From a virus, in the IMG/VR virus record IMGVR_UViG_3300037089_000656, positions 1 to 64,000 of that record: a DNA stretch of 64,000 nucleotides; one strand, 5' to 3'. The notes under the pieces are model-generated. The model was not told the DNA's origin. It did no database searches and saw only the letters and a program-made list of their open reading frames with translations. A program made the translations under genes and the position numbers. Below are positions 2 through 43,135 of the stretch, in pieces; position 1 is the first letter of the stretch; every line of letters begins with the position of its first letter.

Positions 2-811
2 GGGGCCCGCCTCATTAAAGACAGCCTTCTTATGAAGCCTTTTATTATCGTTGCTGATAGTGTGTCAGCAATGACTCCTAAACAAATGTTAGAGGGTGCT
101 GTTGATGAAGCTACGGGGATTGGCTTGCAGGCTCGATTGATGTCTTATTTTTTAAGCCATATAAGTAAATTTCTCAAGGAGAGTAATACTTGCCTTCTTT
201 TTACTAACCAACTTCGATCGGTTATTAAAAAAACCAAGTTTGATGGAGGTCCTGATGAGGAATCAAGTGGTGGTCGTGCTTTAAAATTTTACGCCTCGGT
301 ACGTCTACTCCTCAAAAAGAGTAAAGTTGAAAGATTGAATGTTAAAAGCAGACTTACTGGTGCAGAAGGTAAGGAGCCTATTAACGTTACGATAAAGGCT
401 ACTGTTGTAAAGAATAAGATCGATAAGCCATATCTCTCAGCTCCAATTTACATTCGGTTTGGAGAAGGTATCGATAATGTGATCTCCCTTATTAGGCTTG
501 CTGTGAATACTGGTTTGATCAAGAAATCAGGTTCTTTTTTCACTTACTCTGAAGGGACCGAAGTTTTACTTAAGATTCAGGGTGAAGATAAACTTCGTGA
601 TGCTTTACTTGATAATGAGAAATTACTTAACAAGATCCAAGGCAATATGAGTATTAAAGAGGATGTAGCAGTTAAAGAGGCTTATGAGGCTCTTGGTGAG
701 GAACTGCCCTCTGTAGATGAAATGGATGCAATGTTTAATCAGGTATCCACTACGTACATCGAGGATCAGAAGGATAAAAAGAAGAAAAAGGAAGAGAAAG
801 AAGAAGACTAA
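2..811 (+). CDS. recA: RecA recombinase, 5' partial
   Basis: This is the C-terminal part of a RecA-family strand-exchange ATPase; its 5' end lies before the window, and the frame is open from base 2. Visible RecA landmarks, in order, are the Walker B strand IIVADSV, the stretch GLQARLMS, the switch strand TNQLR, a DNA-binding L2-type loop ending GGRALKFYASVRL, and the late motif VVKNKIDKPY followed by FGEGID. The protein ends in a very charged tail of Lys then Glu/Asp, as in many RecA proteins. It would pair and exchange strands during phage recombination and repair. It sits directly upstream of the Rad50-like gene with no gap, so the two are probably co-transcribed. The order of motifs fits bacterial RecA better than T4 UvsX. 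Confidence 0.9.
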   Translation, partial: GARLIKDSLLMKPFIIVADSVSAMTPKQMLEGAVDEATGIGLQARLMSYFLSHISKFLKESNTCLLFTNQLRSVIKKTKFDGGPDEESSGGRALKFYASVRLLLKKSKVERLNVKSRLTGAEGKEPINVTIKATVVKNKIDKPYLSAPIYIRFGEGIDNVISLIRLAVNTGLIKKSGSFFTYSEGTEVLLKIQGEDKLRDALLDNEKLLNKIQGNMSIKEDVAVKEAYEALGEELPSVDEMDAMFNQVSTTYIEDQKDKKKKKEEKEED

Positions 812-1993
812 ATGACGACGGAAATCTCTATTAAGAATTTTCAAAGTGCGAAGGACGTTAGTCTGGTTGTTGATGGCTTTACAGTTGTTGTTGGCCAAAA
901 CAACATTGGAAAAAGTGCTATTATAAGGGCTGTTGATGCGGCCCTTATAAATAGAACAGGTGACGGTTTTATTCGAGACGATGAGAAGAACACTGAGATA
1001 AAGATTAAACGGGAAGGCTTTACCCTTGAATGGAAAAAAGGGGCAAAGGCTTCCTATAAAATTAATGACACAGAATCTTTTACAGCTCTTAATAGAGATA
1101 TTCCTCAACCCCTTATTGATGCAGGTTTCGGTAGGATGGAGATAGGGGATAAAAAAGTTAGCCCTTTAATTGCTCATCAGTTTGAACCCTTGTTTTTAAT
1201 TAATAAGGGAGGATCGGTTGTTACCGAGGTCTTGGCCGGGATCTATGATTTAGATTCTTTGAGCATTGCTGATGATATGTGTCAGAAGGATTTGAAGGCT
1301 CAGAAATCAATGCTCAAGACCAGGGAAGGGGATTTAAAAGGATTACAAGGTAAGTTAGAAGTTTATACGAATTTTGAAAGTATAAAGGAAGAAGTTAAGG
1401 CCCTCGTAGAAAAGGATAAGGCTTGTCAGGATCTTCAGGCTGAGATAGCCTTACTCTCGGACTACTCTGACCAATTGATAGCCCTATCTGCTTCTCTGGA
1501 AGTTTTAAAAGGCATCAAAGGGGTTAAGGTCCCTGATACGTCTGAGTGTGAAAAGCTTGTAGAAGAAAATTCTTGGCTTGATGAAAAAATACAAGAGCTG
1601 TTTGTTCTGGGAACTAATATTAAAAAATTTAAGATTGTTCAGGATATAAATATTCCTTCAGCAGAGGGTTTTGATAGCCTGACTCAGGATGTTACCCAGT
1701 TAAGTGAGTGGTCTGATCAATTAGAGATATCTCAACGATCTGTTGCGGAATATGAGAAAGTTTTAAATCTTCTTAACCCGGGAATTTTAGAATTAGAGAA
1801 GCTTATCCCTAAAGCGTCAGACGCTCTAAACTCCTTTACTGAAATTTCTGATTTCGAGCAAAACTTTATATCTACAGTAACTTCTACTAAAGCAACCCGA
1901 GATGAGTTAAAAAAAGTAACTGAAGAATTAGAAATTAAAAATAAAGAGTTATCTGAAATTAAAGTGTGCCCGTTGTGTGAAAGGCCTTACTGA
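812..1993 (+). CDS. Rad50/SbcC-like ATPase, N-terminal half ending at the zinc hook
   Basis: This 393-aa protein is the N-terminal half of a Rad50/SbcC-type ATPase. A Walker A motif GQNNIGKS lies at residues 28-35 and a Q-loop-like stretch IAHQFEP follows. From about residue 150 the protein is predominantly coiled coil. It ends with CPLCERPY, a CxxC zinc hook at residues 386-389, only four residues before the stop. Full-length Rad50 continues through a returning coil to the signature motif and Walker B; those elements are absent here but occur in the separate gene at 6214-6822. The two halves would assemble with the SbcD-like nuclease to process DNA ends. The gene starts right after recA. The family call is firm; two-piece function is inferred. 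Confidence 0.85.
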   Translation: MTTEISIKNFQSAKDVSLVVDGFTVVVGQNNIGKSAIIRAVDAALINRTGDGFIRDDEKNTEIKIKREGFTLEWKKGAKASYKINDTESFTALNRDIPQPLIDAGFGRMEIGDKKVSPLIAHQFEPLFLINKGGSVVTEVLAGIYDLDSLSIADDMCQKDLKAQKSMLKTREGDLKGLQGKLEVYTNFESIKEEVKALVEKDKACQDLQAEIALLSDYSDQLIALSASLEVLKGIKGVKVPDTSECEKLVEENSWLDEKIQELFVLGTNIKKFKIVQDINIPSAEGFDSLTQDVTQLSEWSDQLEISQRSVAEYEKVLNLLNPGILELEKLIPKASDALNSFTEISDFEQNFISTVTSTKATRDELKKVTEELEIKNKELSEIKVCPLCERPY

Positions 1994-1994
1994 T

Positions 1995-2084
1995 ATGTCA
2001 TCGAGATATGATATAATACTTGGAAAAACATCTAAGAAGATTAAAAGATTAATTAATCCTCAAGTCCTTCTATCGAGGTTTTAG
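1995..2084 (+). CDS. 29-residue mini-ORF with RYxIxLGK N-terminal motif
   Basis: A short ORF (ATG 1995, TAG 2082-2084) lies between the Rad50-N and SbcD-like genes. Its first residues, MSSRYDIILGK, closely match the starts of the two capsid-locus ORFs at 20709 (MDRYSIALGK) and 20953 (MDRYSIVLGK). The rest is basic (KTSKKIKRLI). A modest AAAGG lies about 12 bases upstream inside the preceding gene. It may be a genuine small protein, a remnant of a larger gene, or a chance ORF; the shared motif is the only argument for coding. A TATAAT hexamer lies inside it, so the same stretch could also hold a promoter for the nuclease gene. Confidence 0.35.
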   Translation: MSSRYDIILGKTSKKIKRLINPQVLLSRF

Positions 2085-2123
2085 CGGCGTAACTGGAATA
2101 GGTTTTTAGAATGAAGGTATTTA

Positions 2124-3110
2124 ATGACTGAGTTTACTTTTGTTTCAACGAGCGATATACATATAAGTGATGTTAATCCTCCAAGTCGTTTAGATAATTT
2201 TAAAGAAGCTATTTTCGATAAAATTTCTCAAATGCGGGTGGCATGTAAAAAGCTTAATGCTGATGCTGCGTTAATTGCTGGTGACTTATACAATATTAAA
2301 CAACCAATGAAAAATAGTCATGCTTTAAACCAGCAGCTGATTGCTGAATTTCGACAATTTCCTTGTCCTATTTATATGATTGAGGGAAATCACGATCTAA
2401 CTGCAAATCGATTAGAGAGTCTTAAGGACCAACCCCTTGGTGTTCTTTTTGCAGATAAAACCTTACTTCAATTACGTCATGAGATCATAGAGAAAAACGG
2501 TAATAAGGTGTCTTTGGTAGGTGTTCCATTTATAGATGATCTTGATTTAGATACCCTCGTTATACCTGATAAAAATGATGCGAAGATACAGATCTGTTTA
2601 ATGCATCTCTATGCTGGTATGAAGGCTGGGATGATGTATAAGGAACGGCTTTATGGCTATGATGAATTGGCAAAGTTCTCACCGGATATATTCGTTTTAG
2701 GCCATTACCATGTGGATCAGGGGATTTACGATCTTAATGGGAAATATTTTATCAGCTTAGGTTCAATGTCTCGGGGAACGATGCATGAGGAAAATACTGA
2801 GCATCAACCTCAGCTTGGGTTTATTCGGATAACAGTTGATGACGAGGGTAATGTCGAGAAATCCTTACGCTCTATAAAGCTTCGAGTTAAGCCTGCTATT
2901 GAAATTTTTGATATGGATAAAAAGGCTGAAGAGAAAAAAGAGAGTGAGGCCATTAAACTGTTTGTTGAAAAACTGGCCACGGAAGCCGTTGCTATGAATG
3001 TGCAGAAGGGTGATGTTGTAGAAAATATTATCGAGCAGATGAATGTGGCTTCTGTTATTCAGGATAGAGTTTTACATTATATCCAATTAGCAAGGTCTCA
3101 AAAGAAATGA
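2124..3110 (+). CDS. SbcD/Mre11-like exonuclease subunit
   Basis: This 328-aa metallophosphoesterase is of the SbcD/Mre11/T4 gp47 type. All the metal-binding blocks are visible: SDIHISD (D11, H13), AGDLYN (G53-D54), EGNHD (N89-H90-D91), the histidine in LMHLYAG (H161) and GHYHVD (H194, H196). The C-terminal ~70 residues are helical and charged and probably form the dimerisation or Rad50-binding region. With the split Rad50-like halves it would trim DNA ends or hairpins during repair, recombination-dependent replication or packaging. AAGG seven bases before the ATG serves as ribosome-binding site. Its stop overlaps the next start (ATGA at 3107-3110), which suggests translational coupling. Confidence 0.88.
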   Translation: MTEFTFVSTSDIHISDVNPPSRLDNFKEAIFDKISQMRVACKKLNADAALIAGDLYNIKQPMKNSHALNQQLIAEFRQFPCPIYMIEGNHDLTANRLESLKDQPLGVLFADKTLLQLRHEIIEKNGNKVSLVGVPFIDDLDLDTLVIPDKNDAKIQICLMHLYAGMKAGMMYKERLYGYDELAKFSPDIFVLGHYHVDQGIYDLNGKYFISLGSMSRGTMHEENTEHQPQLGFIRITVDDEGNVEKSLRSIKLRVKPAIEIFDMDKKAEEKKESEAIKLFVEKLATEAVAMNVQKGDVVENIIEQMNVASVIQDRVLHYIQLARSQKK

Positions 3111-3394
3111 AGCAGTTTATCCATAAATCTGACTCTCGAATGAAAACGGTTGTCTGCGGTGGCCCTGCTTTTGAAGATAAAAAGGCTGATTTTGTGTGTG
3201 ATAGCTCATCTATAAAACTTAAAAACATAAGATTGCTGACTATGTTGCGCCTTTTAAAAATTTTTTTAAGGTATGGAAATGCTGAAATTTATTATCATAT
3301 TTGTGGAAGTTATGGTGAATGGGATGTCCCAATGGATGCTGAGAACGTCGAAGTGAGACACACTCTTACAGGCCCACATGTAACTATTTGGTGA
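3107..3394 (+). CDS. unknown 95-aa protein
   Basis: I do not recognise this protein. It overlaps the SbcD-like gene by four bases (ATGA), so it belongs to the same operon. It has scattered Cys and His residues but no clear metal-binding spacing, and a central basic helical segment (LLTMLRLLKIFLRYG). The C-terminus resembles a small beta-rich fold (ICGSYGEWDVP, then HTLTGPHVTIW). No signal peptide or membrane segment is evident. Confidence 0.6.
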   Translation: MKQFIHKSDSRMKTVVCGGPAFEDKKADFVCDSSSIKLKNIRLLTMLRLLKIFLRYGNAEIYYHICGSYGEWDVPMDAENVEVRHTLTGPHVTIW

Positions 3395-3405
3395 AAGGAT
3401 TTATA

Positions 3406-3657
3406 ATGCCAGAAATCGAAAATATTAAACCTATGAGAAGAAAGTATTGGAGTGAACTTACTGATTCAGAACGTGTTTTGAAATTACAGGAGGAGCTTTC
3501 ACGGACCCAGCATCAGGTAGCAGATCTCTGTAAGTATGTTGGTAAATTAATGGAGCATGCACATTACGAAGGTCGTATAGTTTCTAATATTCAAAGGCCT
3601 AATGAAGAATCTTATGGTGGAATTTATTTTCGTGTGGAAGATTTTAAGGATAAATAA
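3406..3657 (+). CDS. unknown 83-aa protein
   Basis: This is a small, mostly helical protein with no recognised domain. The frame is open from a TTG at 3388, but AAGGA at about 3395-3399 sits eight bases before the ATG at 3406, so I take MPEIENIKP as the true start. The middle (ERVLKLQEELSRTQHQVADL) looks like a short amphipathic coiled coil. The stop overlaps the next start (TAATG). Confidence 0.6.
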   Translation: MPEIENIKPMRRKYWSELTDSERVLKLQEELSRTQHQVADLCKYVGKLMEHAHYEGRIVSNIQRPNEESYGGIYFRVEDFKDK

Positions 3658-3893
3658 TGAGTTGGTTATCAAGGATAGATGTGAAAAAAGAATACCTAAC
3701 TACCCGGAAGAAAATTAATAAAGAGACAGATAAGTTACTGTTCCCGTGGTATCAAAGGTTATGGCAGTTATTTAAAAAAAATAAGCCAGAGGACCCGTAT
3801 AAAGGAAATCCTTTTAGATGTCCTAAGTGTGGGCACTGCCTTGCTTGGGCTTATGGCACTTGTGCTTATTGTCTTGATGGAGTGCCAAAATGA
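3657..3893 (+). CDS. small zinc-ribbon protein
   Basis: This 78-aa protein has a basic helical N-terminal half and a C-terminal zinc ribbon: CPKC at residues 55-58 and CAYC at about 70-73. It probably binds one zinc ion and may act as an adaptor or nucleic-acid-binding protein; no specific function can be given. It is coupled to both neighbours by overlaps (TAATG upstream, ATGA downstream), which places it between the Rad50/Mre11 genes and the RecB-type nuclease. Confidence 0.65.
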   Translation: MSWLSRIDVKKEYLTTRKKINKETDKLLFPWYQRLWQLFKKNKPEDPYKGNPFRCPKCGHCLAWAYGTCAYCLDGVPK

Positions 3894-4720
3894 GAATTAG
3901 TTATCACGGATGGAAGGCTTATAAGGAATGTCCTAAGAAATTCTTTTTAGGCCATATTCAAAAGGCCCCTCCTACGGTCCCTGTGAATCAGTATTTTACT
4001 TTATACGGCAGGCTCGTTGAAAATTTTTTCACCTTATTCTCGAATATATGGAGATTCAAGACCCCTTATATTTTTCCTGAGGTAATTCGAGAAAGACTGC
4101 AGGTTCTATATAACGATATTCTTATGGCAAGCACAGTGAACTGGGCTGCTCCTTTTGTTAAGTATACCCAGAATGGTATATTCGAACAGGCTTTTGCTGA
4201 TGTTTGTTTGATTATGGACTCAATGGAACAGAATAACTTTCTCAGTACCAAGGCCGAGGTCGGGATCGAGTTAAAGCTTAAGGATAACACAGAACTTACA
4301 GGACGTCTGGATTTTATACACACATTCCCCTTATCTAAAGAAGTTTTAATTTTTGATGGCAAGGGAACAGATGTTATAGGTAAGAATGTGTCTAATGATC
4401 AGCTTCTTTTTTATGCCTTACTTTATTTTTTTCAATATAAGAAACTTCCGAACAGTCTGGGTTTCTTCTATTACAGGTTTAATACCTTAATCCCTGTGCC
4501 TATTAATGAGTTCTTATTAAATGATTTTAGGGCACGTATTTCTCTTGATATAAAAACAATGACTTCTGATCAAAAATTTACAGCTACTCCATGCTCTAAA
4601 TCCTGTAAGTATTGTGATTATGCACGGGATTGTCTGGAAGGGCTACAGTCAAAGGGAACTCGGTCCAGGAAATCTAAACTTAAGTTCGAAGGTGAAGGCT
4701 TTGTAGAATTCGGATTTTAA
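3890..4720 (+). CDS. Cas4/RecB-like PD-(D/E)XK nuclease with probable Fe-S cluster
   Basis: This 276-aa protein has the RecB-type nuclease motifs in order: TGRLDFI (D141), FDGKG (D156-x-K158) and QLLFYALLY (Q171, Y175). A cysteine near the N-terminus (C14, in ECPKKFF) and a C-terminal group (C239, C242, C248, with C235 nearby) match the arrangement that holds a 4Fe-4S cluster in Cas4 and AddB nucleases. It would degrade or trim DNA ends. There is no helicase domain and no CRISPR locus in the window, so a recombination role beside RecA and SbcCD is more likely than adaptation. It overlaps the zinc-ribbon gene by four bases. Confidence 0.8.
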   Translation: MRISYHGWKAYKECPKKFFLGHIQKAPPTVPVNQYFTLYGRLVENFFTLFSNIWRFKTPYIFPEVIRERLQVLYNDILMASTVNWAAPFVKYTQNGIFEQAFADVCLIMDSMEQNNFLSTKAEVGIELKLKDNTELTGRLDFIHTFPLSKEVLIFDGKGTDVIGKNVSNDQLLFYALLYFFQYKKLPNSLGFFYYRFNTLIPVPINEFLLNDFRARISLDIKTMTSDQKFTATPCSKSCKYCDYARDCLEGLQSKGTRSRKSKLKFEGEGFVEFGF

Positions 4721-4792
4721 TTGTGTGAAAAATAAAATAATATGGTATTAAATCACATAAAATCAATATTATAAGAAAAGATTGGGGAGTAT

Positions 4793-5056
4793 ATGGATGA
4801 AACAGTTGAGAGAGTGATGAAGATTAAGGAAAAGGTTGCAGATCTTTCCAATAAAAAGATACGAATTGAGGAAAGGTTTAAAAGCGAAAAAGCTAATCTC
4901 GAGAAGCTTATTGAAAAAATTACATCAAGTGGCTATGACCCGAAAAAGCTGACCGAGATTAAAAAGGAGAAACAGGATCTTCTTAAGAAAGCCTTGGAAG
5001 AAGTTGAAGAAAAGACTAAAGCTGTTGAACAAAAACTTAGCTTGATAGAGGTTTAA
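4793..5056 (+). CDS. small coiled-coil protein
   Basis: This 87-aa protein is almost entirely charged heptad-like helix (Lys/Glu rich, with Ile/Leu spaced as in a coiled coil) and one break around SSGYDPKK. A strong GGGGAG lies just before the ATG. It follows a 72-base AT-rich gap that probably carries a promoter and lies two bases before the sliding-clamp gene. Function is unknown; a structural or adaptor role with the clamp or Rad50 is possible but not shown. Confidence 0.6.
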   Translation: MDETVERVMKIKEKVADLSNKKIRIEERFKSEKANLEKLIEKITSSGYDPKKLTEIKKEKQDLLKKALEEVEEKTKAVEQKLSLIEV

Positions 5057-5058
5057 AT

Positions 5059-6213
5059 ATGATTGAATTTATTGCTACTACCGTAAATTTGAAAAAAGCT
5101 CTCTCGATCGTGGCCTTGGCCACAGGGGATAATGTTGAAGATATCCATGGGCATGCTTTATTCAGCTCCGATGAAAATGGGGTTACTTTGTATGCTACAG
5201 ATGAAGACAAACTTGCCACGGCTTATCTTCCTGTTGAAGGATTAGATTCTGGTGTGAAAACGAGATTTACTCTGGAACCTAAGAAACTGCAGGCTTTAAT
5301 AAACACATCTAAGTCTGATTCGGTTAAGTTTTCTTATGAGGATGAAACTAAGACTCTTAATGTTTATGCCTCAGAAGATTCCGATGCTTTTGTATCTTTC
5401 CCTTCTTTTGATCCAGATAGTTTCTTAACTTTTCATGAAGACTTGTTCTCGGCGAAAGAGGTTAAGACTGTAGAGGCCAATGTTATTACAACCTCTCTTA
5501 AGTTTATTCAAGGATTTTTGAGTGATGATAAAAATAAGAAATACTCGAATGTTTATATTGTCGATGGGAAGATTTATGGGGCAAACGGGTCATCAAAAGT
5601 AGGTGTTTTTATTAGCCCTTGTTTCGAGGGAGTGAATCTTGTTTTACGGCGTATTATGCTTTCATCTATAAATTCTTTTATCGAGAAAGCCGGTATCCCG
5701 GAGATTACAATAAAAGAGACGGATAAGATTGTTATTGTTTCTGGTATTAAGGGGTTGGATAATTTTGCTTTTAGAAAATCCGTTATTGAAGTTCCTAAGC
5801 TCCCTATTTCTACAAGTGTCCCTCAGTCGGCTGGTTTTGTGATCGAACGGGGAACCTTTCTTAAGAAGCTTAACCGCCTTTTTCTAACTCACAATCAACG
5901 TAATGCTGAGTTTGGTTTAAAGGTCAATATCAAAGGTAAGGATATTGTTATTGAGACTATTGCGGATAGGAAGTCTGTCGAAAAGATATCTTGCGAAAGG
6001 GTTGCAGGAGAGGATCCTTTAGATTTTACTATTGATTGTATAAAGTTAAGGGAAGTTCTGGGACTTTTCCAGGCGGATAAGGTTGATTTTTATATCGAAA
6101 AAGGTAAATGCTCGATATACAGTGATGCTGAAGTGGTGATTAGAGAAGAAAACCCACCAGTGACCAGTCCCTTCGTTTCAATAGGCTTAGTGACTTTAGC
6201 AAAGGTTGTGTAA
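5059..6213 (+). CDS. dnaN: DNA polymerase sliding clamp, beta (DnaN) type
   Basis: The 384-aa length and three repeated alpha-beta units match bacterial beta clamps. Typical pieces include the N-terminal LKKALSIVALATG, the strand LFSSDENGVTLYATDEDKLATAYLPVE around residues 35-60 (compare the usual I.i...g.l.l.atd.e), the domain-2 segment YSNVYIVDGKIYGANG, and the domain-3 segment around FTIDCIKLREVLGLF. The clamp tethers the replicative polymerase to DNA; the polymerase itself is not in the window, but the clamp-loader subunit DnaX is at 17072. Sequence similarity is remote, so the call rests on length and pattern. The stop abuts the GTG start of the next gene. Confidence 0.75.
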   Translation: MIEFIATTVNLKKALSIVALATGDNVEDIHGHALFSSDENGVTLYATDEDKLATAYLPVEGLDSGVKTRFTLEPKKLQALINTSKSDSVKFSYEDETKTLNVYASEDSDAFVSFPSFDPDSFLTFHEDLFSAKEVKTVEANVITTSLKFIQGFLSDDKNKKYSNVYIVDGKIYGANGSSKVGVFISPCFEGVNLVLRRIMLSSINSFIEKAGIPEITIKETDKIVIVSGIKGLDNFAFRKSVIEVPKLPISTSVPQSAGFVIERGTFLKKLNRLFLTHNQRNAEFGLKVNIKGKDIVIETIADRKSVEKISCERVAGEDPLDFTIDCIKLREVLGLFQADKVDFYIEKGKCSIYSDAEVVIREENPPVTSPFVSIGLVTLAKVV

Positions 6214-6822
6214 GTGCTCTCTGTTATAGAACTGCAGCGTAAGACTGATCAAATTGAAGGGTTTTATCGAGCCCTTCAAAATCAGGAATCATCTCTTAAG
6301 GATCAGATCAGCTCAATTAAAGAAGAGATCGATATACTGACTAAGACCAGTACGGTTTTAAAGCATTTACTTGATGTGATGATTAAGGATGAAATCATTC
6401 CTATGGCCAGTCTTATTACTTACGGTCTAAAGACTATATTTCATGATCAGAATCTTAGTTTTATTCCTAAGATGATGAAGAAGAACGAAAAAATGCATAT
6501 TGAGCTTAAGACCGAGGTTGATGGGAAGGAAAGAGACTTCGAATCTTTCGGTGGAAGTGTGGCCGTTATAGAGAGCTTTTTGTTGAGAATTTTATGCATG
6601 CTCAAGAAAAACTATGCTAAGGTCTTATTTTTAGATGAGACCTTTGCGGCCGTGGGGGCTATTTATATCGCTAATACCTGCAAATTTATAAATGAGCTTT
6701 GTAAAAAACTTAAAATGGATGTACTTTTAGTTACCTGGCAGAATGAGTTCGAGAGTGGCGCCGACCATGTGTACAAGGTAAAAAAGACTTCCAATGGAAT
6801 AACAGTGGAGAAAACCAGATGA
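6214..6822 (+). CDS. Rad50/SbcC-like ATPase, C-terminal half
   Basis: This 202-aa protein supplies what the protein at 812-1993 lacks. An N-terminal coiled coil (residues ~5-55) is followed by an ABC signature-like segment SFGGS at 111-115 and a Walker B strand KVLFLDE at 136-142. After LLVT the residue where ABC/SMC ATPases normally carry the switch histidine is Trp (VTWQ, W175). There is no Walker A and no zinc hook, so it cannot be a complete ATPase alone. GTG is the start codon, touching the clamp stop codon. The simplest reading is that it associates in trans with the N-terminal half; a gene-fission origin is inferred. Confidence 0.8.
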   Translation: MLSVIELQRKTDQIEGFYRALQNQESSLKDQISSIKEEIDILTKTSTVLKHLLDVMIKDEIIPMASLITYGLKTIFHDQNLSFIPKMMKKNEKMHIELKTEVDGKERDFESFGGSVAVIESFLLRILCMLKKNYAKVLFLDETFAAVGAIYIANTCKFINELCKKLKMDVLLVTWQNEFESGADHVYKVKKTSNGITVEKTR

Positions 6823-30997: not shown

Positions 30998-33900
30998 ATG
31001 TCTGAGACTTATAATGGTCAATATGCCCCTGAATTATTTAATGAAGATAAGAGATACTATCTTTTACAAGCTCAAGAGTTAGCCAACCTTACCGACGCCG
31101 AGCTTAGAGACCTTCATCACATATCAAACACATTCAATCGGAGATTTATCCAGGCTCAGGTTGGGGACAGTGCTATTGACAATGCATTTAAGATTGTCCA
31201 GAATCCTTTAGATAGCGTAAATAATTTTAGGGTTACGGGTGGAGATGGTACTACTCCTGCAGTGATGCACCTTGAAGGTTTTCGTCTGTATTTAAATGGT
31301 AATATTGCTTACAAAGACCAGACGAGTACAGGACCTTTAACTCGAGATGGCTATACAAAAACCACTTTGCCTGCGTTGACTGTTCCGAATGGTCCTACAT
31401 ATACCATTACTGATTTAAATTTTCAAACCCCTACTCTTGCCCTTACGAATTTAAGTACTACTTCTCCTTTCTTTTCTTCTCAAGATTATGGTCGAAATTG
31501 GTTGAGTTCAGATGCCTCGACAAACAGTCTTTATGGTGTTTCATTTTTTGATTCGAATAATGGATATGCCGCAGGATCTAGTGGGGCGGTGCTCCAGACA
31601 ACTGACGCAGGATTAAATTGGACTCCAGTGACTACAGGCCCTGTTACTAGTTTGAATTTTTTAGATACTGATTTTATATCTAATTATGGTTGGGTTGTAG
31701 GAGAATCAGGAACAATTCGAGGTTATAATTTAAGTTGGTTTACGGCTACTCCTGTAACTACTTCTGATTTAAGTGGCGTAACGATTATTGATCAGTTTAA
31801 TTCCTGGGCTGTTGGATCTTCTGGTGTAATATTAAATTGTGACGATGGAATTAACTGGTTTCAGCAAGCGAGTCCTGTTGGAACCGGAGATCTTGCCCGA
31901 GTTTTTGCTTTAAATGCTAATCTTGTTTTTGCTGTTGGTGATAATGGCGTAGTAGTAAAAACTGTGGATGGTGGAAATAATTGGTATTTCCCAGGCCCTA
32001 CAGGTACTAACGTAGATTTACATGACATCTTTTTTGCTGATGTTCATAAAGGTTGGGCTGTAGGTTCTAATGGTGTTATAATTCAGACAGATAATGCAGG
32101 TACCACTTGGTTTGATAGTACGATCGCTCCAGGAGTGGACCTAAATGCTGTTATATTTAAAGATACAACAGGGTTTGTAGGTGGAACGAATGGTGCTATA
32201 TATAGAACACTTGATGGGACAAATTGGGAGCCTTACCGTACTGACTATGTTTATGTAGATTTTCATCTCGGTGAAGTATCAGCTGATACCAGCAGCGAGT
32301 ACCGTGATCCTGCTTTACTTGATATAGTTGTAGGGTCTCCAAGTGCTAATCGGCTTCGCATTGTCTCCGATATTAAAGTATCTGAAGGTTTCCCGAATCC
32401 TTCTGATTATTCTCCTGATGGGACAGTTCAGAATCTCACACTTAATATAGCAAAGTTATTAAGACCTGTTGGTCAGTCGAATATTTTGTCGACAATGATT
32501 ACAGATACTCGAAAAGTGGTTCGAACTATTTCTGAAATTGATGCCTTGTTTTCTTCTGGTGGAATTGATAGTTCGGCTATTGCTGATGGTGCTGTAACGC
32601 CTTCAAAGCTTGATATTACGGCTGATTATACTGTGGGCAGCTTGCAGGTTATTAATGATGCAGAGATCCATGGGGATTTGACCGTAGATGGTGAACTCTT
32701 TGTTACAAATATGTCGGCAAGTTTGATTGTTGAGAATCTATTAGTAGATGGGAATTCTCAACTTGGTGATTCTACTGCCCCTTATGAAGATAGTGTTAAA
32801 ATTTATGGTAGTGTGAATCATTACCATGACACTACAACACCTGCATACAGCATTGTAGTTGATTCTACCTCGAAAGATGCTCCTGTTTTTAATATAACTT
32901 CGACTGGTACTGGAAGCATTTTCCATATTGAACGTAATTCCTTGGATTCTACTAAGTTTTTGTTTGATGTTACAAACTTAGGAAAAAGTTATGATTTTAG
33001 TATAAATCATCTTGGGACTGAAGGTGGAATATTTAAAATTCGAGATGATGCTAGTCGAGATTCTATCATTATCACTAAGAATGCTCCAGGATTCCTTGGT
33101 TCAGTTTTAAATATTCAAAGTAATAGCGTAAGTCCTTTATTTAATCTTTTTAATCAGGCTTCTTCTCCTTCTGTTACGATAAGTGTAGATCAAACCTCAG
33201 GAACAATGGTTCGGTTAAATACTAGTTCTGATGCCTCTGGAGTGGTTATTACCTCTCAGGGAGTTGGAAGAGATTTAGTAATTAATCATCAAGGAACTGC
33301 AGGCATTCCTATTGATGTATCCAGTTCAAGTCTTCAAGGATCTGTAAACATTGTTAATACTGCAGGACCTGCTGTTACGATTTTCCAAAATGGTGCAAGC
33401 CCAGCCTTGTCTGTTAATAAAGACAGGACAGGTCTCTTAGGTGTCGCTCTTGAAGTTTTTAATTGGGGTGATGATGTAGGGTTAGGGGTTTATAATACAG
33501 GTTCAGGAGTTGCTCAGTTAATCTCTCATGTGGGTGACAGCGTTGTTGTTGGTCATGATACAACTAATCCAGGATTAGATATTTTTGTAGGCGGGACCGA
33601 GACAGGTCCTGCTCTTCGAATAAATAAAGCTAATGATAATTCTGGTGAGGTGGTACGGTTAATAAATCAGGGGTTAAGTGAATCCTTATTTATTACTCAT
33701 GACAGAACCGATTCCTCAGCTTCGATGATTAGATTGGATAATAAATCATCGGGTTATGATGTAAGTTCAAATTATTGGTGGATAGATAATAAAGGAAATT
33801 TCTTCACTCTTGGTGATGTTTCTACTTCATTAGTTGCTTTTGATACAACTCATTATTTTAGTGCCCAGAAAATATGGCTCGATTATACTGGTTTTGATTC

Positions 33901-36430
33901 TTCAAATCCTGGCATTGCAGGACAAGCCTTTATAGAATCAGGGTTTTTAAGAATAAGTGATGGTAGTGCAACATTACCTCCAATTGCTGGAGCTACGGGA
34001 GCGACAGGACCTACGGGAGCGTCTGGAACCAGTGGCATTACAGGAGTTCAAGGTTACACTGGAGTATCGGGATCAAAAGGATCTACTGGAGTAGGATTTA
34101 TTGGTTCAACAGGAGTTCAAGGTCCTTCGGGTTCAACAGGAGTTCAAGGAATTATAGGAATTCCAGGCCCTGGCGGCTCAACAGGAGTTCAAGGTGCAGG
34201 ATCAACTGGATTACGTGGAACAACAGGATTGCAAGGACCAACTGGACTTATGGGCCCTACAGGAGTTCAGGGCTTAACAGGACCAGCAGGTGCAGGATAT
34301 ACTGGAGTTCAAGGTGGTACGGGACTCTTTGGTCCAACAGGAGTTCAGGGCTTAACTGGAGTCCAAGGGCTTGGACTTACTGGACTTCAAGGAATAACGG
34401 GAGTACAAGGTACAGTAGGTTTAACTGGAGCCCAGGGTGCAGGTTTTACAGGGGTTCAAGGACCAGTAGGTTCGCAAGGAGTTACAGGTCCAGCAGGTGC
34501 AGGTTTTACAGGAGTTCAAGGCATCGATGGTGTAACTGGCCCTCAAGGTGCAGGTTTTACTGGATTACAGGGATTGACTGGAGTTCGTGGATTACAGGGC
34601 ATACCAGGAGTAGGTCTTCAGGGTGTAACTGGCCCTCAAGGTTTAGGGTCAACAGGAGTCCAAGGAACATCTGGTATACAGGGATCCACAGGAGTTGGTA
34701 CGGAAGGTCAGACTGGTGTTCAGGGAATTCAAGGCCGAACTGGAGTCCAAGGATCTCAAGGAGCCCCGGGTATAGGTATTCAAGGATCAACTGGAGTTCA
34801 AGGTTTAGGAGCCACAGGAGTTCAGGGATTAACTGGATCTCAGGGAGCCACAGGAACAGGTAGTGGAGGAGTTTCTTATGCGGACTTACTTCCTTTAGGA
34901 TTGCCTACTGATGGGACATTTACTATCGGTATATTCCCTTTTGATGCTAGCACTATAACAACAGATGCAATAGATGATCTTAATGGCCTTTTATTGGCAA
35001 TTGCTCCTGCTGCTCCAGGGCCCCTTGCTGGAAGTTTGACTTTAGTAGGGGTTACGAAATACAGTGCTCTTCTTCCTACAGGTTTATCTTCAGCGCTTTG
35101 GTATCAAGGTGGGGCAACGCCTGGAACCTTGATTTTTGATTACGTTGTAGGTAACTCTTATCAACTTATAACTCCAAATTTAGGAACCACTTTTAAATGT
35201 GGGAGTACTTTTGGTGGAGATGTTGGAACACTATCCCATATTGATGATGGTACTGTAAGTTTTTCACGCTTATTAAGTTCTGGTACGGGAGCAACTGGAG
35301 ATCTTCAAGTTACTTCGATTAATGTTTATAATTCTATATGGCATAAAGCTAATGCTCAGATTTTATATACTCAAACTACTCCTGGTTATGAAACTCATTC
35401 GTTAAAATATACGGTAGGAGCTTCCGTGCAACAAACTTCTGATTCCTTATTTTGGTATGATAATAGTGACCTTGCTCCAACTTTCCCAGTACCATTAGTG
35501 GTTGCACAGAATTTTATATCAAGTTCTCGTTATGTGTCGGGAGTTAGATATTACTCTACTGGAGATCTATTTAATTTCGGTGCTCAAATAAATAATTTAG
35601 CAAATCAGGCCATTAGACCTGCAAATCCAGTCTCTTATTCGATGCCAGGATTAAATAATGTCGATCTTACGATAAATGGAGCATCATTTGCCTACAATCA
35701 GACTTATCTCCTGGATCAATCGAGTATAGCTCTTAATGCTTCTAACGTTTACAGTATAAATGCAAGAGCCACAGTAATTGGACGTAAGCCAGATGGTGAT
35801 ACTTCCTCTAATGTGTCGCTCGCAGTGAATCGTTTGATAAATACTTATAGTACGACATATAGCACTAATGGAAATATTACGATGTTTGATGAGAACTACC
35901 GTTTCCCATTATCTACTGATTTCTCATTGATTCCTGGAGCACTGACAGGAAACTGGACAAGTTCAACTCCATTATCGAATGGTGATGCATTACTTTTTAA
36001 CTCTGTATGGGCTTATCCTTCGATCAATTTTACAACAGGTTATTTACCTGTCCAGGTAGGAAATGATTATTCTGCTTTTTCAGGGGATCAAACAGTTGTA
36101 TGGGGAGTCAATATTGGTCTTGGCTTTTCGAATATGCAAATTGCCTTTACAGGAATGAATTATACGAATATTTCTCCCGATAACACGGGAAATTTAAATG
36201 TTGATGTAAGGCTTCCAACTGCGACTGGCTGGCTTGATGGTGGTCGTGCTTTTGGGAGTGTTTTTGGAGATAGTACTGGTTGTCAGCTTGGAAGTTCTTC
36301 CGGAAGTACTTTACAATTAACTTTCGGGACCAGTTCTTCTTCTTACTCGTCTGGAGTAGTTTTTGTACGGGTCGTATTGAAAAATGGATCTGCTGCTCAG
36401 GCTTCTCAAATGGTTATAACGGGATTTTAA
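30998..36430 (+). CDS. giant fibre protein: YCF48-like propeller, collagen-like stalk, C-terminal knob
   Basis: This 1810-aa virion protein has several modules. Residues 1-110 ([14 protein letters not shown]..., NNFRVTGG) look like a baseplate-attachment region. Residues ~150-410 hold about six repeats of the YCF48/BNR-like type ([20 protein letters not shown]), a beta-propeller. Residues ~530-980 are repeated beta-strand segments with recurring [17 protein letters not shown]-like patterns, probably a trimeric shaft. Residues ~998-1290 are collagen-like G-x-y triplets (GVQG-x-TG). Residues 1290-1810 form one or more C-terminal domains that would bind the receptor. It follows TerL by 82 bases and opens the fibre region. 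Confidence 0.8.
33989..34868 (+). repeat. collagen-like triplet repeat tract 1
   Basis: About 290 codons of uninterrupted Gly-x-y triplets dominated by GVQG, GLTG, GPTG and GAGF. At the DNA level the words GGAGTTCAAGG and GGATTACAGGG recur in many near-identical copies, so the tract can slip or recombine. Confidence 0.9.
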
Positions 36431-36445
36431 AGGAGCGTTGTTACT

Positions 36446-39400
36446 ATGCCATGGACTAAAGAAGATAGGTCATTTAAGACCTTAATAAATAAGCGAACTA
36501 CTTCATCCAATAAAGCCTACTATAGTGAGATTGGGGATAATACTCTTAATCTTAGCTTTGGTGAGGTATGGACGACTCCTATACCTAGTGACCCGTCTCA
36601 AGCGGTATCTCAAGGTGTGGCAGAGCTGAGAACCTTATTTGTCATGACTGAGGATATTACTGTCCCAAACCAACAAGCATATTACGCTTTTTCTGGCGTT
36701 AATCTTGAAGGATGGGTTAGTGACAAGTATGGGTCTGGTTATGCTGTTCATCTTTATCAGAATAATGGTACCGAGATATTTCCTACTGACGCCTCTCAGT
36801 GGTTTTTTGATTATCAGACAGGGATACTGACTTTTAATGGGAGTACCGCAGCACTTTCAAAACCTTTTAAGATAACAGGGTATCGTTATCTTGGAAATAA
36901 AGGTGTTATACGTATTAGTGATATGACGTCTGTGACACCTAATCAGGTGTTATATGGGTCTCCTGCTGGAACTTTAGCTCAGTCCTCTAAATTTACTTAT
37001 GATGGGACCTCCTTTAATCTTTCAGGTGTTGACGGAACCATTAGTTTTAATGCTTCTAGCCCCCTTATGGTAAATGTAGCAGGCAATCTTGTTGCTGTAG
37101 TAAAAGCTTATAGCACATCTCCTTTTTTCTCTGGAGGATTTACAGCATATAATGATTTGACTTCAAATCCTGCACAGATATCTATTATATCAAGAGGGTC
37201 CACAATGTCTGGGACTTATTTTGGTTTTAATAATCCTAATGTGGTAGCACTTACTGCATCCTATTCTTCTCATTTCATAATTGGAACAAATAATTATACT
37301 CCTATTAGTTTTGGTTATGATAGCACTATAGTTTCTCAATTAGATAGTACTAGATTAACTGTTTATGGGGATATCGACGCGACGACTGGAAAAGGGTTTA
37401 CTATTGGAGGATCTGCTCCTGTCGGTCATATTCTTATTGGAGATGGAACAAGATACGTAGATGGTACGAATAATGCTGCCATATCAGGTTTGACTCCAAA
37501 TCAATTTCTTTATGGGTCACCTACAGGAACTATTGCTCAGGATCCAAATTTCGTTGTGAGTGATGGTACTGGTGTGTCATTTGCTAAGACTGCAGTAATA
37601 GGTGATACTTCTAATGGTATGAGTTCTACTATTACTCCGACACCGTACATTGATTTCTCGGCCAATACGGGTACACAATACACTATAGCAAATACTTGGT
37701 GGGCATTTCAGTTTACAACTCCTTCGTCTCCCGCTAATTACACCCTGAGTGGAGCTCAGATTCAACTTTACGCTTCTGCTTCTTCTGGGTGTACTAATCC
37801 AAATATATCATGGCATGGTAATATTTACACAGATAATGCTGGCAGTCCTGGGTCGTTACTCGCTACCATACCTAATGGAACTGGGTTAGCAGGTATTCCT
37901 TTTGGTTGGGTTTTTAATACTATCTCATCGCTTCCTGTAGTAAATAAATTAGAGTCCTTTGGAGCTAAGTTATATGCGAACACTACTTATTGGCTCGTAT
38001 TTAATGCTTCTCAATTACCTGCAGGAGTAACCCATTATTTGGATACTACTTCAAGTACTAATGGGGGTGCTGTTTCTAATGATGGTATTAATTGGTCGCC
38101 TATAAATTACTCTTTAAGCATGGTTTTATATGGGGCCACTGGATATGCTTTTTTAGGTACTGCACGATACACTAATTACGCTTTATACGGAATAAGTTAT
38201 TCGGGAACAGGTGTAAATGGCGGCTCTATTGCCAGTGTTGGTGTGAACGCAACTAGTATAGCTAGTACCGCTCTGGTTGGTTATTCTCAATATGGTTATG
38301 GTGCATATCTTCATAGCTTATGGTCTAAAGGTACCAGTATATTAACTGCCAATGGTCCTGGAGCGACTATATATCAATCAGGTGGAACTGTAGATAATGC
38401 TAATGATGTTTTATGGGTCGAGAGAAGCGTCAATAGCCATAATAATAGCGGTAATTTAATAGTTGTGTATGATTACCCAAATGGGGGTATTAACTCAGGT
38501 GCAATTTTATCAGCTAAACTTGGTACTACAATAAATAATGTTGTTGAAAGAATCCGTTTTGACCCTCGTGCTTTAGATAGTTCAACCGTTAACTTTTTTG
38601 ACACTTTTAATACACTTACTCTTCCTTCTTCTAAGTTGCTATCTTTAAGAAACCACGGAACAGAAAAACTTTACGTGGATTGCTCTGGAAATCTTAGTAG
38701 TGCAAGTGTTATTGATACCTCGACAGGTTATACAATTGGACAAACCGCCCCTGTTGGTCATTACCTGCGAGGAGATGGCATACATTATGTAGACAGTACA
38801 TTAATGTCTAGTGATATGTCAGGATTGACTGCCAGTCAGCTTCTTTATGGTAATTCTTCTGGTGGAATAAAACAGAGTTCAATGTTTTATGTAACCGATG
38901 CTTCTCCGGTCGGTGGGGCGGTATATTCAAGTGGGTATGGATCTCAATCTGTAGGGTATTCTGCTAAAAATACCAATTCGGCCGGATATACTCTTGTTTC
39001 CCAATCCAATGATAGATCCACCGGTATTGTGTATCTAAATTCATCAGTTTATGGAAGTACCAGTGCCCTAACAGTTTTTGGGGGTTCCCATCCTGACAGT
39101 GCTACGATAAAAGCTTCCGGATCGAACCTGGCGGGCTTTCTTATTGGAACATCCGGTGCTGACATTCCTATAAACCTGTATGTTAACGATAATTTACAGG
39201 CAACTCTGTCCTCTACAAATTTAACGGTAGCAGGTGGCATTGACACCTCCTCCGGATTTACGATCGGTATGGGAGCGCCTACCGGACATTTTTTAAGAGG
39301 TAATGGTACTCGGTATGTTGATGGTACCATTGCAGGCAGTGACTTATCTGGACTGACTACAAATCAAATACTTTACGGTAGTCCCTCAGGAGGTATAGCT

Positions 39401-42400
39401 CAATCTTCTTTACTGTCCTTAAGTCCTAATCAAACCAGTTTGTTATTTGCTAGAACAGTACCCCTTAATGATACCACAGCAGGAATTTCTTCGACTTTAA
39501 GCCCTACTCCTTACGTGGACATGTCTTCCAATTCAGGTACTGATTATACTTTAGCAAATACTTGGTGGGCATTTAAGTTTACAACTCCAGCAAGTCCAGC
39601 CACTCAAACTTTATCAGCCATAACCCTTGCTATAAAAACTTCTTCTGGAACTATAACCAATAAAGGGTCTGGCTGGAGTCCTTATATTTACACAGATAAT
39701 TCTGGATTTCCTGGGACATTGAAAGGTGGTTCCCCTAACGGAAATTTAACCCCTAGAATTTATTATGGTTGGGTAATAACTAGTTATCCTAATTTTCCAA
39801 CATCTAGAATATCTGTTAATACTGGTACTCAGTTAGCTGCGAGCACCTCCTACTGGCTTGTGTTTAATGCAGCTTCTGGGTTGCCTCAAGGCGTTACTCA
39901 TATAGTTGATACTACTGTAAGCACTAATGGTGGAGCTTTTTCTTCTGATGGAGTCAACTGGACAAATATAAATAATTCTTTGAGAATGGTTGTCTATGGC
40001 TCAATGGGTTCTGCTATTATAGGTAATTCAATGACAGGAATTGGAGTAAACGCTGCTGGTTATTACGGTAATGCTATTCAAGCTACTTCTTTCACTGGAA
40101 ATGCCATATCTGCTACAAGTACGGAAGGTATAGGTTTAAACGTCTCATCTCAATATGGAACAGGTATTTCTGCTTCAACTAATTATAATGGTTGGGCGGG
40201 TCAATTCATATCTACCGGTGGTGGAGCTATCGATGCTGAACAGTACAACCTTACAGGTAGTGCCTACGATTTGTTATCGATGGAAAGAAGTTATTGTATT
40301 GATCAGACTCAAAGCATAATTGCTATGTATGAATACCATAACTCGGGTAAACAAGGTCCGATATTTTCGGCTTGGTCAGCCTTCTATTATTATGACATGG
40401 TGGAAAGGGTGCATTTTAATACCCATGTTGTGGATGGTTCTAGTTCCTCTGTAGCACATTGGTTTGATACAGATAACGTTTTAACAACTATGGGGAGTAA
40501 ACTTTTCTCAATAAGGAATTCCAGTTCGGAAAAGTTTTACGTAGATTGTTCTGGAAATCTTAGTAGTGCAAGTGTTGTTGACGCTTCAACTGGTTATACT
40601 ATTGGGCAAACGGCTCCTGCTGGACATTATCTACGAGGTAATGGCTCTTTTTATGTTGATGCAACGATACAGCTTTCAGATCTTCCTATTGGAGCAGGAG
40701 GTACTGGTGTTCAAGGAACCACAGGAGTTTCTATACAAGGAGTAACAGGAGCAGATGGAGAAGAAGGGCCGCAAGGAATACAAGGATTTACAGGGGTTTT
40801 AGGAGTTCAGGGAGTGACGGGTCCCACTGTTGGCAATACTGGTCTTCAAGGACCAACAGGGGTTGTGGGAACTCAGGGCGTTACTGGTGCGGCTGGAGCA
40901 GGTTTCACAGGACTTCAGGGGATAACTGGAGTTCAAGGCGTAATGGGCGTTACTGGCCCTCAAGGAGCAGGTTTTACTGGATTACAGGGATTGACTGGAG
41001 TTCAAGGTATTGATGGAGTTACTGGAGTCCAAGGATTAGGCCTTACAGGAGTTCAAGGAAATACAGGAGTTCAAGGACAGACGGGTTTGCAAGGAATTGG
41101 TCAGGGTGGAGCAACACTCTTCCCAAATGATAGTACCAATTCTGATTTAACTTCTGCAGGTTATTCTGTACTACAGTCTAGCCCTACTTCATCAACCTTA
41201 TCAACACATACTCTAACTCTTAATAGTGGTTCTGGATTAACTGCTTTTGATTCTACTGGGTATGCTACAATTTCCACCTTTCCTAATATTAACTTGATAC
41301 CTGGTGGAGATTGGGGTTTTGATGTTTTTGCAGCAACAAGTAATACAGATGGTTCCTCTCAAGTTATAACTAAGATTTATAAACGGGATACATCAGGCGT
41401 AGAATCATTTTTATTTGACGCTACCCAGTCGATTACGTCAAATACAACAGCAGAATTTGATTATGATATTGTTCAGCCAGATATTTCATTAAATCCCACG
41501 GATAGGTTGGTTGCTAAATATTACGGCTTCGTATCTGGAGGGGCAAATAGAACAATAGCGTATACAACTGGAGCAGCTAATAGTTGGTCTCATATACACA
41601 CTCCTATCGCTTTAACCATTCAAGGTCAAACAGGAATTCAAGGAGTGACAGGATTACAGGGACCTACTGGAGTTCAAGGTCAAACGGGAATTCAAGGATC
41701 CACAGGAGTCCAGGGTCAGACAGGATTACAGGGACCTACTGGAGTTCAAGGTCAAACGGGAATTCAAGGATCAACAGGAGTCCAGGGTCAGACAGGATTA
41801 CAGGGACCTACTGGAGTCCAGGGTCAGACGGGACTTCAAGGATCAACAGGAGTCCAGGGTCAGACAGGATTACAGGGACCTACTGGAGTCCAGGGTCAAA
41901 CTGGTATTCAGGGATTAACTGGAGTCCAGGGTCAAACTGGTATTCAGGGATTAACTGGAGTTCAAGGTCAGACAGGATTACAAGGTCCCACGGGAGTTCA
42001 AGGTCAGACAGGGCTACAAGGGCCCACAGGAGTCCAAGGTCAAACAGGGGTTCAAGGTCAGACAGGACTTCAAGGGCCAACCGGAGTTCAAGGTCAGACA
42101 GGTCTTCAGGGAAGAACAGGAGTTCAAGGAACTACTGGGTTGCAAGGACCCACAGGAGTCCAAGGAAATACAGGAATTCAAGGATTAACGGGGGTTCAAG
42201 GAAATACAGGATTACAAGGTCCTACAGGAGTTCAAGGAACACAAGGAAATACGGGAGTTCAAGGAAATACAGGTTTGCAGGGACCGACAGGAGTTCAAGG
42301 TCAGACTGGTCTTAAAGGAGTAACAGGAGTTCAAGGAAATACAGGTCTTCAGGGACCCACCGGGGTACAGGGACAGACTGGTTTAAAGGGAGTTACTGGG

Positions 42401-43135
42401 GTTCAAGGTAATCAAGGAGCCACAGGAGCTCAGGCTGTTGGAGGTATAACAGGAACTTTGACCTCCGGTGACGTTGTTGTCGCTACAGGAACAAACACTG
42501 TTGGTGTTAGTACAATTTTAATGTCGGGGAGTACTTTTGAGAACTCAGTAAATATAGGAGGAAGTTGTGAGGTTTTAGCTTACAACCCTCATGATGATGG
42601 TTGGGCTTCAATAAAAGCTTCTACGGCAGGAGATAAAATTTTTGATATGCTCTCTTGTGGAGTTAATTACGACACCGATTATGGTCACATATCTGGAGTT
42701 AACTCAAGTCTTTTGAATGATTTGTGGTCTTCTGGTTCAGCTCTTATGCTTGAACAGCAGGGCAATAACCCCATGTATCTTGTGACGCAAGGTAATACTC
42801 GTGTAGGAATTACTGGTGATGGGGCAGTTTATGTTCCAATTTGTTTAACCGTAGGTTTTCCTGGAACTTATGCAACTACAGGTAATTTGATGGTTAAGGA
42901 TAGAGTTACTTGTGGAGGCCATTTGAGAGTCGGGGATTCAACTGCGGATAATGCTAGTTATACATTTTCCGTAAATTTTCCTTCGGAAGATACACAGTGG
43001 GCTGATGCGACTGCTATACATGCTACAAGTTCGACTATTTCTGGAGCCTCAGGTTGGATTAAACTTTGGGTTAACCATCCTACTGATGGTTATGTTCAAC
43101 GGTACATTCCAATGTTTAATACCGTAACAACCTAA
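36446..43135 (+). CDS. giant fibre protein with duplicated adhesion modules and two collagen-like stalks
   Basis: This 2229-aa protein starts after AAAGGAG. The N-terminal ~150 residues resemble a tail-attachment domain (PWTKEDRSFKTLINKRTTSS...). Five copies of a linker unit (SDLSGLT-x-NQ-x-LYGSP-x-GGIAQSS and GHYLRGNG-x-x-YVD) separate larger domains. Two copies of a jelly-roll-like 'choice-of-anchor R' type domain (ANTWWAFQFTTP..., YIYTDNSG, STSYWLVFNA) lie at ~400-570 and ~1020-1190, each followed by a similar ~250-residue tract, marking a long internal duplication. Collagen-like stalks at ~1415-1555 and ~1725-1998 flank a globular domain that is also present in the protein at 59592. The last 230 residues form a C-terminal tip. 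Confidence 0.8.
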   Translation: MPWTKEDRSFKTLINKRTTSSNKAYYSEIGDNTLNLSFGEVWTTPIPSDPSQAVSQGVAELRTLFVMTEDITVPNQQAYYAFSGVNLEGWVSDKYGSGYAVHLYQNNGTEIFPTDASQWFFDYQTGILTFNGSTAALSKPFKITGYRYLGNKGVIRISDMTSVTPNQVLYGSPAGTLAQSSKFTYDGTSFNLSGVDGTISFNASSPLMVNVAGNLVAVVKAYSTSPFFSGGFTAYNDLTSNPAQISIISRGSTMSGTYFGFNNPNVVALTASYSSHFIIGTNNYTPISFGYDSTIVSQLDSTRLTVYGDIDATTGKGFTIGGSAPVGHILIGDGTRYVDGTNNAAISGLTPNQFLYGSPTGTIAQDPNFVVSDGTGVSFAKTAVIGDTSNGMSSTITPTPYIDFSANTGTQYTIANTWWAFQFTTPSSPANYTLSGAQIQLYASASSGCTNPNISWHGNIYTDNAGSPGSLLATIPNGTGLAGIPFGWVFNTISSLPVVNKLESFGAKLYANTTYWLVFNASQLPAGVTHYLDTTSSTNGGAVSNDGINWSPINYSLSMVLYGATGYAFLGTARYTNYALYGISYSGTGVNGGSIASVGVNATSIASTALVGYSQYGYGAYLHSLWSKGTSILTANGPGATIYQSGGTVDNANDVLWVERSVNSHNNSGNLIVVYDYPNGGINSGAILSAKLGTTINNVVERIRFDPRALDSSTVNFFDTFNTLTLPSSKLLSLRNHGTEKLYVDCSGNLSSASVIDTSTGYTIGQTAPVGHYLRGDGIHYVDSTLMSSDMSGLTASQLLYGNSSGGIKQSSMFYVTDASPVGGAVYSSGYGSQSVGYSAKNTNSAGYTLVSQSNDRSTGIVYLNSSVYGSTSALTVFGGSHPDSATIKASGSNLAGFLIGTSGADIPINLYVNDNLQATLSSTNLTVAGGIDTSSGFTIGMGAPTGHFLRGNGTRYVDGTIAGSDLSGLTTNQILYGSPSGGIAQSSLLSLSPNQTSLLFARTVPLNDTTAGISSTLSPTPYVDMSSNSGTDYTLANTWWAFKFTTPASPATQTLSAITLAIKTSSGTITNKGSGWSPYIYTDNSGFPGTLKGGSPNGNLTPRIYYGWVITSYPNFPTSRISVNTGTQLAASTSYWLVFNAASGLPQGVTHIVDTTVSTNGGAFSSDGVNWTNINNSLRMVVYGSMGSAIIGNSMTGIGVNAAGYYGNAIQATSFTGNAISATSTEGIGLNVSSQYGTGISASTNYNGWAGQFISTGGGAIDAEQYNLTGSAYDLLSMERSYCIDQTQSIIAMYEYHNSGKQGPIFSAWSAFYYYDMVERVHFNTHVVDGSSSSVAHWFDTDNVLTTMGSKLFSIRNSSSEKFYVDCSGNLSSASVVDASTGYTIGQTAPAGHYLRGNGSFYVDATIQLSDLPIGAGGTGVQGTTGVSIQGVTGADGEEGPQGIQGFTGVLGVQGVTGPTVGNTGLQGPTGVVGTQGVTGAAGAGFTGLQGITGVQGVMGVTGPQGAGFTGLQGLTGVQGIDGVTGVQGLGLTGVQGNTGVQGQTGLQGIGQGGATLFPNDSTNSDLTSAGYSVLQSSPTSSTLSTHTLTLNSGSGLTAFDSTGYATISTFPNINLIPGGDWGFDVFAATSNTDGSSQVITKIYKRDTSGVESFLFDATQSITSNTTAEFDYDIVQPDISLNPTDRLVAKYYGFVSGGANRTIAYTTGAANSWSHIHTPIALTIQGQTGIQGVTGLQGPTGVQGQTGIQGSTGVQGQTGLQGPTGVQGQTGIQGSTGVQGQTGLQGPTGVQGQTGLQGSTGVQGQTGLQGPTGVQGQTGIQGLTGVQGQTGIQGLTGVQGQTGLQGPTGVQGQTGLQGPTGVQGQTGVQGQTGLQGPTGVQGQTGLQGRTGVQGTTGLQGPTGVQGNTGIQGLTGVQGNTGLQGPTGVQGTQGNTGVQGNTGLQGPTGVQGQTGLKGVTGVQGNTGLQGPTGVQGQTGLKGVTGVQGNQGATGAQAVGGITGTLTSGDVVVATGTNTVGVSTILMSGSTFENSVNIGGSCEVLAYNPHDDGWASIKASTAGDKIFDMLSCGVNYDTDYGHISGVNSSLLNDLWSSGSALMLEQQGNNPMYLVTQGNTRVGITGDGAVYVPICLTVGFPGTYATTGNLMVKDRVTCGGHLRVGDSTADNASYTFSVNFPSEDTQWADATAIHATSSTISGASGWIKLWVNHPTDGYVQRYIPMFNTVTT
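40691..41109 (+). repeat. collagen-like triplet repeat tract 2
   Basis: About 140 codons of Gly-x-y repeats, less regular than later tracts, with several GVQG and GVTG triplets and two short breaks. It leads into a globular domain (41110-41620). Confidence 0.85.
41621..42441 (+). repeat. collagen-like triplet repeat tract 3, 36-base periodicity
   Basis: The DNA is a near-perfect tandem array with a 36-base period encoding GVQGQTGLQGPT (and GIQGST variants). Third-position differences are scattered between copies. This is the most regular of the tracts and the most prone to copy-number change. Long antisense and shifted frames stay open through it because of the periodicity. Confidence 0.9.

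Follow-up and report, generated by a model that had tools for sequence, protein, structure and literature searches.

Rad50/SbcC is normally one protein, and the virus record IMGVR_UViG_3300037089_000656 raises the question of whether it can also be encoded in separate parts. The window analyzed (64,000 nucleotides, positions 1 to 64,000 of the record) is nearly all of a 65,979-bp sequence that starts within recA/uvsX, and it contains two genes, separated by 4.2 kb, that an earlier reading of the letters (the original prediction) took to be the halves of a Rad50 ATPase: an N-half with Walker A and zinc-hook motifs, and a C-half with signature and Walker B motifs. The two products very probably belong to a phage Mre11-Rad50 (SbcCD, gp46/47-type) DNA-end-processing complex whose Rad50 ATPase consists of more than one polypeptide. 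Sequence comparison, single-chain models, synteny, co-occurrence and phylogeny point to a natural Rad50 of two, perhaps three, chains, accompanied by its Mre11.

Re-examination of the sequence reproduced the predicted coordinates, motifs and gene order of both halves, including the Mre11-like, Cas4-like and clamp genes between them (profile matches). The N-half (393 aa) has the Walker A motif GQNNIGKS, ends four residues past CPLC (...KVCPLCERPY), and by itself matches phrog_16465 ('exonuclease', 4.5e-17) and AAA_23 (7.9e-07). The C-half (202 aa) carries ESFGGSVA and the Walker B motif KVLFLDE, has neither Walker A nor CxxC, and gave matches to phrog_15167 ('ATPase', 1.7e-12) and, at a weak level, to the end of SbcC. 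The letters SFGGS are present as predicted, but do not form a normal LSGGE-type signature: the family motif is [F/Y]GG[G/A/S], whereas fused phage Rad50s retain S-x-G-E/Q.

Profiles built from 70 N-half and 57 C-half sequences gave complementary matches, the former to the Rad50 N-lobe and separately to zinc-hook structures (1l8d, 6zff), the latter to the C-chain of Pyrococcus furiosus Rad50 (1.4e-10). Foldseek likewise placed the two models on partner chains of shared two-chain structures: in 9a9j, for example, the N-half on chain A and the C-half on chain B. The Walker A, Walker B and hook residues are invariant despite identities of about 25%: G28, G33 and K34 of Walker A, Q123 and both hook cysteines are found in all 70 aligned N-halves, the Walker B DE in 100% of 81 C-halves, and the GG of the signature in 98-100%. 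By these sequence and model comparisons, each half corresponds solely to its own portion of Rad50, with the cut at the hook. Of the features expected of Rad50/SbcC, an N-lobe with Walker A and Q-loop, a CxxC hook, a C-lobe with Walker B, and an Mre11/SbcD partner are present. A signature with Ser and E/Q and the H-loop His are missing, and both lobes and both arms are not in one chain: the window and every relative that has the gene cassette encode them in separate genes.

The halves could instead be unrelated partial ATPases of the ABC/SMC type that act apart, the N-half as an ATP binder with a zinc motif and the C-half with another partner such as the clamp. The best single PDB profile match of the N-half is the N-lobe of an OLD-family nuclease, most genomes couple translation of the C-half to that of the clamp, and the C-half signature is degenerate. 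Nevertheless, this explanation is improbable: neither protein alone has a complete ATP site, the matches are complementary to one Rad50, the N-half matches zinc-hook structures, and the halves are found together even at distances above 100 kb.

Viral contigs scanned with single sequences gave no matches and alignment queries were required, with which IMG/VR scans returned 148 loci. The split halves occur in about 90 divergent, mostly uncultured phages. The search for fused and split versions that the original prediction proposed, conducted with 94 distinct N-half sequences (including phage LP65 as an ordinary fused control), found that 92 have CxxC 3-21 residues from the chain end; the exceptions are Microbacterium phage Magritte, which has no hook, and LP65, which is fused with 313 residues after the hook. 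Since this end-point recurs in 92 of 94 sequences and the hook cysteines are invariant in 70, the split is not due to chance or sequencing error. No open reading frame (ORF) in the IMG/VR loci was matched by both the N-half and C-half profiles, and there is no fused ORF in the cassette. The fused LP65 protein has matches in 3,379 of 50,697 phage records, versus about five for the split form in that collection. A genome scan with a smaller C-half alignment gave just three matches (one 4.6-kb contig of a metagenome-assembled genome and two short matches in Rhizobiaceae bins), so the split family looks phage-borne.

The halves travel together. Among 66 N-half loci with at least 9 kb of downstream sequence, 61 have the C-half, 62 Mre11, 60 the clamp and 55 a small coil protein gene; in six of six tested cases where the C-half was not near the N-half, it was elsewhere on the same contig. 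Conversely, the N-half was recovered in two contigs and in Magritte, starting from records with only the C-half. In LR745208.1 (485 kb) both halves are separate in the same gene order as in the window; in Tunturiibacter phage Tunturi_5 they are 108 kb apart on opposite strands; in Magritte they are separate and far apart. The order is N-half, AP2-domain gene, coil, C-half in Bacillus phage vB_BboS-125 and recombinase, N-half, Mre11, coil, C-half in Microcystis phage Mvi-JY20. A separate full-length Rad50, which would have contradicted the original prediction, was not found with SbcC and AAA_23 profiles in 12 large phage records (133-536 kb, including the complete Tunturi_5 and Magritte), in which every match was to an N-sized or C-sized frame. 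The central claim, that Rad50 is split into two genes, is thus upheld by the complementary matches and by co-occurrence.

Because the cut at the hook recurs in about 90 divergent phages, the split looks like an old, working and widespread lineage state and not a broken gene. Decay, with rad50 fragments left behind by a mobile element or frameshift, is very improbable; the AP2-domain gene between the N-half and coil/C-half of vB_BboS-125 is in its favor, but about 90 divergent sequences share an identical cut point and invariant catalytic residues, the genes have separate start codons and a conserved order, and in the window no remnant lies between the parts, nor was a coil remnant found in any frame of the 1994-2123 gap. 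It is scarcely credible that a post-transcriptional or post-translational event (a split intein, trans-splicing, frameshift or bypass) joins the halves: three relatives have large intein-like insertions in the Walker A of the N-half, but these interrupt the N-half itself, there is no intein sequence at the N-half end or C-half start, and some halves are encoded on opposite strands or are separated by 108 kb. In the N-lobe tree the 92 split sequences group as a single clade (support 0.91) that excludes eight fused phage Rad50s, of which the SPO1-type are nearest, and the C-lobe tree agrees (support 0.80). With the tree rooted on T4, an assumed root, these sequences suggest one fission of an SPO1-type gene. 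AP2-domain genes are often mobile in phages, and the one in vB_BboS-125 (L156:8990-9562) is a possible trace of gene splitting.

A further question is whether there is a third piece. The coil protein (about 90 aa, with a helix, GhDPxxL, helix pattern) usually accompanies the halves. The C-half family has about 205 residues, compared to 269-313 after the hook in fused phage Rad50s, and the deficit is approximately the size of the coil protein, of which the phrog_77 matches in two genomes fall after the hook. The coil protein probably supplies the stretch of return arm that is absent between the hook and the C-half. More tentative, at somewhat short of even confidence, is a Rad50 in three parts: an N-lobe, arm and hook chain, a hairpin acting as distal return arm and, from the clamp operon, a C-lobe chain. 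In such a Rad50, the zinc site at the free arm tip, in many relatives a self-contained CCHH/CCHC knuckle, would uncouple tethering from head engagement. Alternatively, the N-half and C-half may pair as Rad50 while the coil protein is an accessory of the clamp or replisome, a plausible but less favored possibility. The coil gene is directly before the clamp gene in most genomes, and contig L055 has it with the PDDEXK and clamp genes, away from the C-half. On the other hand, it adjoins the N-half in Tunturi_5 (9 bp after it) and in G007 (about 100 bp), and directly precedes the C-half, with no clamp, in vB_BboS-125 and Mvi-JY20. Distance correlations (0.28 with the clamp, 0.31 with the C-half) single out no partner, and comparisons for homology to the Rad50 return arm gave generic coil scores against fused phage Rad50s and generic coiled coils in the PDB.

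In the AlphaFold models, the N-half (pLDDT 85) consists of an N-lobe followed by helices 147-232, 244-274, 284-320 and 328-382 up to the hook, and the C-half (pLDDT 94) of helix 2-75 followed by the C-lobe. We infer that the first helix of the N arm (about 85 residues) would pair with the C-half helix of about 75 residues beside the head, the two halves together forming one ABC head. If they pair, the ATP sites are built from separate chains and the hook is on one arm only. Two heads would close as an ATP sandwich, each site combining Walker A of one N-half with Walker B of the C-half paired to it and with the signature face contributed by the second C-half. Mre11 would sit at the coil base, as it does in canonical complexes, and zinc would link two N-half chains through the hooks at their free arm ends. 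The task of the complex, shared with the neighboring recombinase, PDDEXK nuclease and clamp, would be DNA-end processing in recombination-dependent replication.

Hook tails differ within the family: 45 of 92 have at least two additional His/Cys residues after CxxC (CPxC), versus 1.4 expected from composition, as in CPVCGSVLGDDHEH of L087 (N-half at L087:9992-11080). Judging by sequence, single chains with such tails could bind zinc, a self-contained knuckle replacing the two-chain hook. The tail ERPY in the window could not bind zinc by itself, so a two-chain hook is still expected in this phage. N-halves are 308-487 aa long across the family, a spread for which the number of repeats in the arm may be partly responsible; one N arm (L109:9995-11458) has about five tandem repeats of about 41 residues with a VPD-type turn. 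The very long N-half ORFs of L026 (3376-5622), L031 (2662-4782) and L071 (3635-5842) have Walker A interrupted by about 300-340 aa that show intein-like features; domain fusion was considered as their cause and rejected.

Several observations weigh against the two-chain reading. The signature lacks Ser and E/Q, and the H-loop His, present in 98% of relatives, is Trp175 in the window (TGG, 6736-6738), so ATP hydrolysis may differ. The N-half model has a pTM of 0.44, which makes the course of the arm uncertain, and the N-half of Magritte lacks the hook. Six contig fragments with a C-half gave no N-half match, and the genome in the window is incomplete at its recA/uvsX end.

Table 1. Coordinates of the split Rad50 genes, their motifs and neighboring genes in the window.
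Feature	Position	Strand	Remarks
RecA/UvsX recombinase	32..811	+	5' end lost at record start; profile matches
Rad50 N-half	812..1993	+	N-lobe with Walker A and Q-loop, outgoing helical arm, zinc-hook motif at the end
Walker A GQNNIGKS	893..916	+	Residues 28-35 of N-half
Hook motif CPLC	1967..1978	+	Residues 386-389; stop codon 4 residues later
Mre11/SbcD-like nuclease	2124..3110	+	Profile matches and phosphoesterase motifs
PDDEXK (Cas4/RecB-like) nuclease	3890..4720	+	C-terminal Cys cluster
COIL, 87-aa helix-turn-helix hairpin protein	4793..5056	+	Candidate third piece; conserved alongside split halves
Sliding clamp (DNA polymerase processivity factor)	5059..6213	+	Stop codon abuts C-half start
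Rad50 C-half	6214..6822	+	Return helix (2-75) and C-lobe; GTG start abuts clamp stop
Degenerate signature FGGS	6547..6558	+	Residues 112-115 of C-half
Walker B VLFLDE	6622..6639	+	Residues 137-142 of C-half

The cassette order is recA/uvsX, N-half, Mre11, three small genes, PDDEXK, coil, clamp, C-half (Table 1). The N-half gene is grouped with the recombinase and Mre11, unlike the C-half gene beside the clamp; 0 bases separate the clamp stop from the C-half start in the window, and at most about 20 bases do so in most genomes with the clamp before the C-half. The Mre11-like protein matches Metallophos (1.6e-10) and SbcD (2.2e-10) and, in alignment with its relatives, retains D11, H13, D54, N89, H90, H161, H194 and H196. 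The PDDEXK/Cas4-like nuclease has a profile match of 3.7e-13, and the clamp matches phrog_947 (6.8e-14). Elsewhere in the window, the clamp-loader gene (17072-18439) has no ATG, GTG or TTG ahead of its Walker A; its frame is open upstream to an ACG at 17072 that is preceded by AAGGCGG and is possibly a non-standard start codon. Two very large proteins (30998-43135 and 57718-59583) with long collagen-like GxTGxQG repeats are probably tail or fibre proteins.

The original prediction concerned one case; beyond it, the analysis adds a widespread lineage, a third small coil gene and a degenerate signature. Models of Rad50 and SMC proteins assume that head opening reaches the hook or hinge through a single uninterrupted antiparallel arm. 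A naturally occurring Rad50 with a C-lobe not covalently tied to the hook or the N arm would make this assumption testable, since the signal would then travel by the N arm alone or by a non-covalent third protein, and its separately expressible parts would be available for biochemistry. Phage genes annotated as 'exonuclease' and 'ATPase' would also be corrected: phrog_16465 matches the N-half and phrog_15167 the C-half, but the two families are listed as unrelated, and nothing there calls them parts of one Rad50. An earlier report of a split Rad50/SbcC was not found in the open-licence literature, although one may exist elsewhere.

Multidomain enzymes encoded in parts are known from large phages: in jumbo phages, DNA polymerase III alpha and RNA polymerase subunits are split (PMC7824862). 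These are different enzymes, and the SbcC/Rad50 passages of that survey mention no split. Phage T4 gp46/gp47 and the SPO1-type (Herelleviridae) SbcCD similarly have a Rad50/Mre11 pair in a recombination-replication gene set and share the hook motif, which is mid-arm, but their Rad50 is one chain of 560-639 aa, of which 269-313 residues follow the hook, in place of two genes and a C-part of about 205 aa. Another likeness is to the catalytic domain of P. furiosus Rad50 (1f2t/1f2u, 1ii8, 3qkr, 9a9j), in which separate N-lobe and C-lobe polypeptides form one head, and which gave the best structural matches for both halves. These crystallized two-chain heads show that assembly of a Rad50 head does not require the lobes to be covalently joined. 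They were engineered, without the distal arm and hook, from a protein that is natively single-chain, and the split phage Rad50 would be the natural counterpart of the crystallographers' two-chain head.
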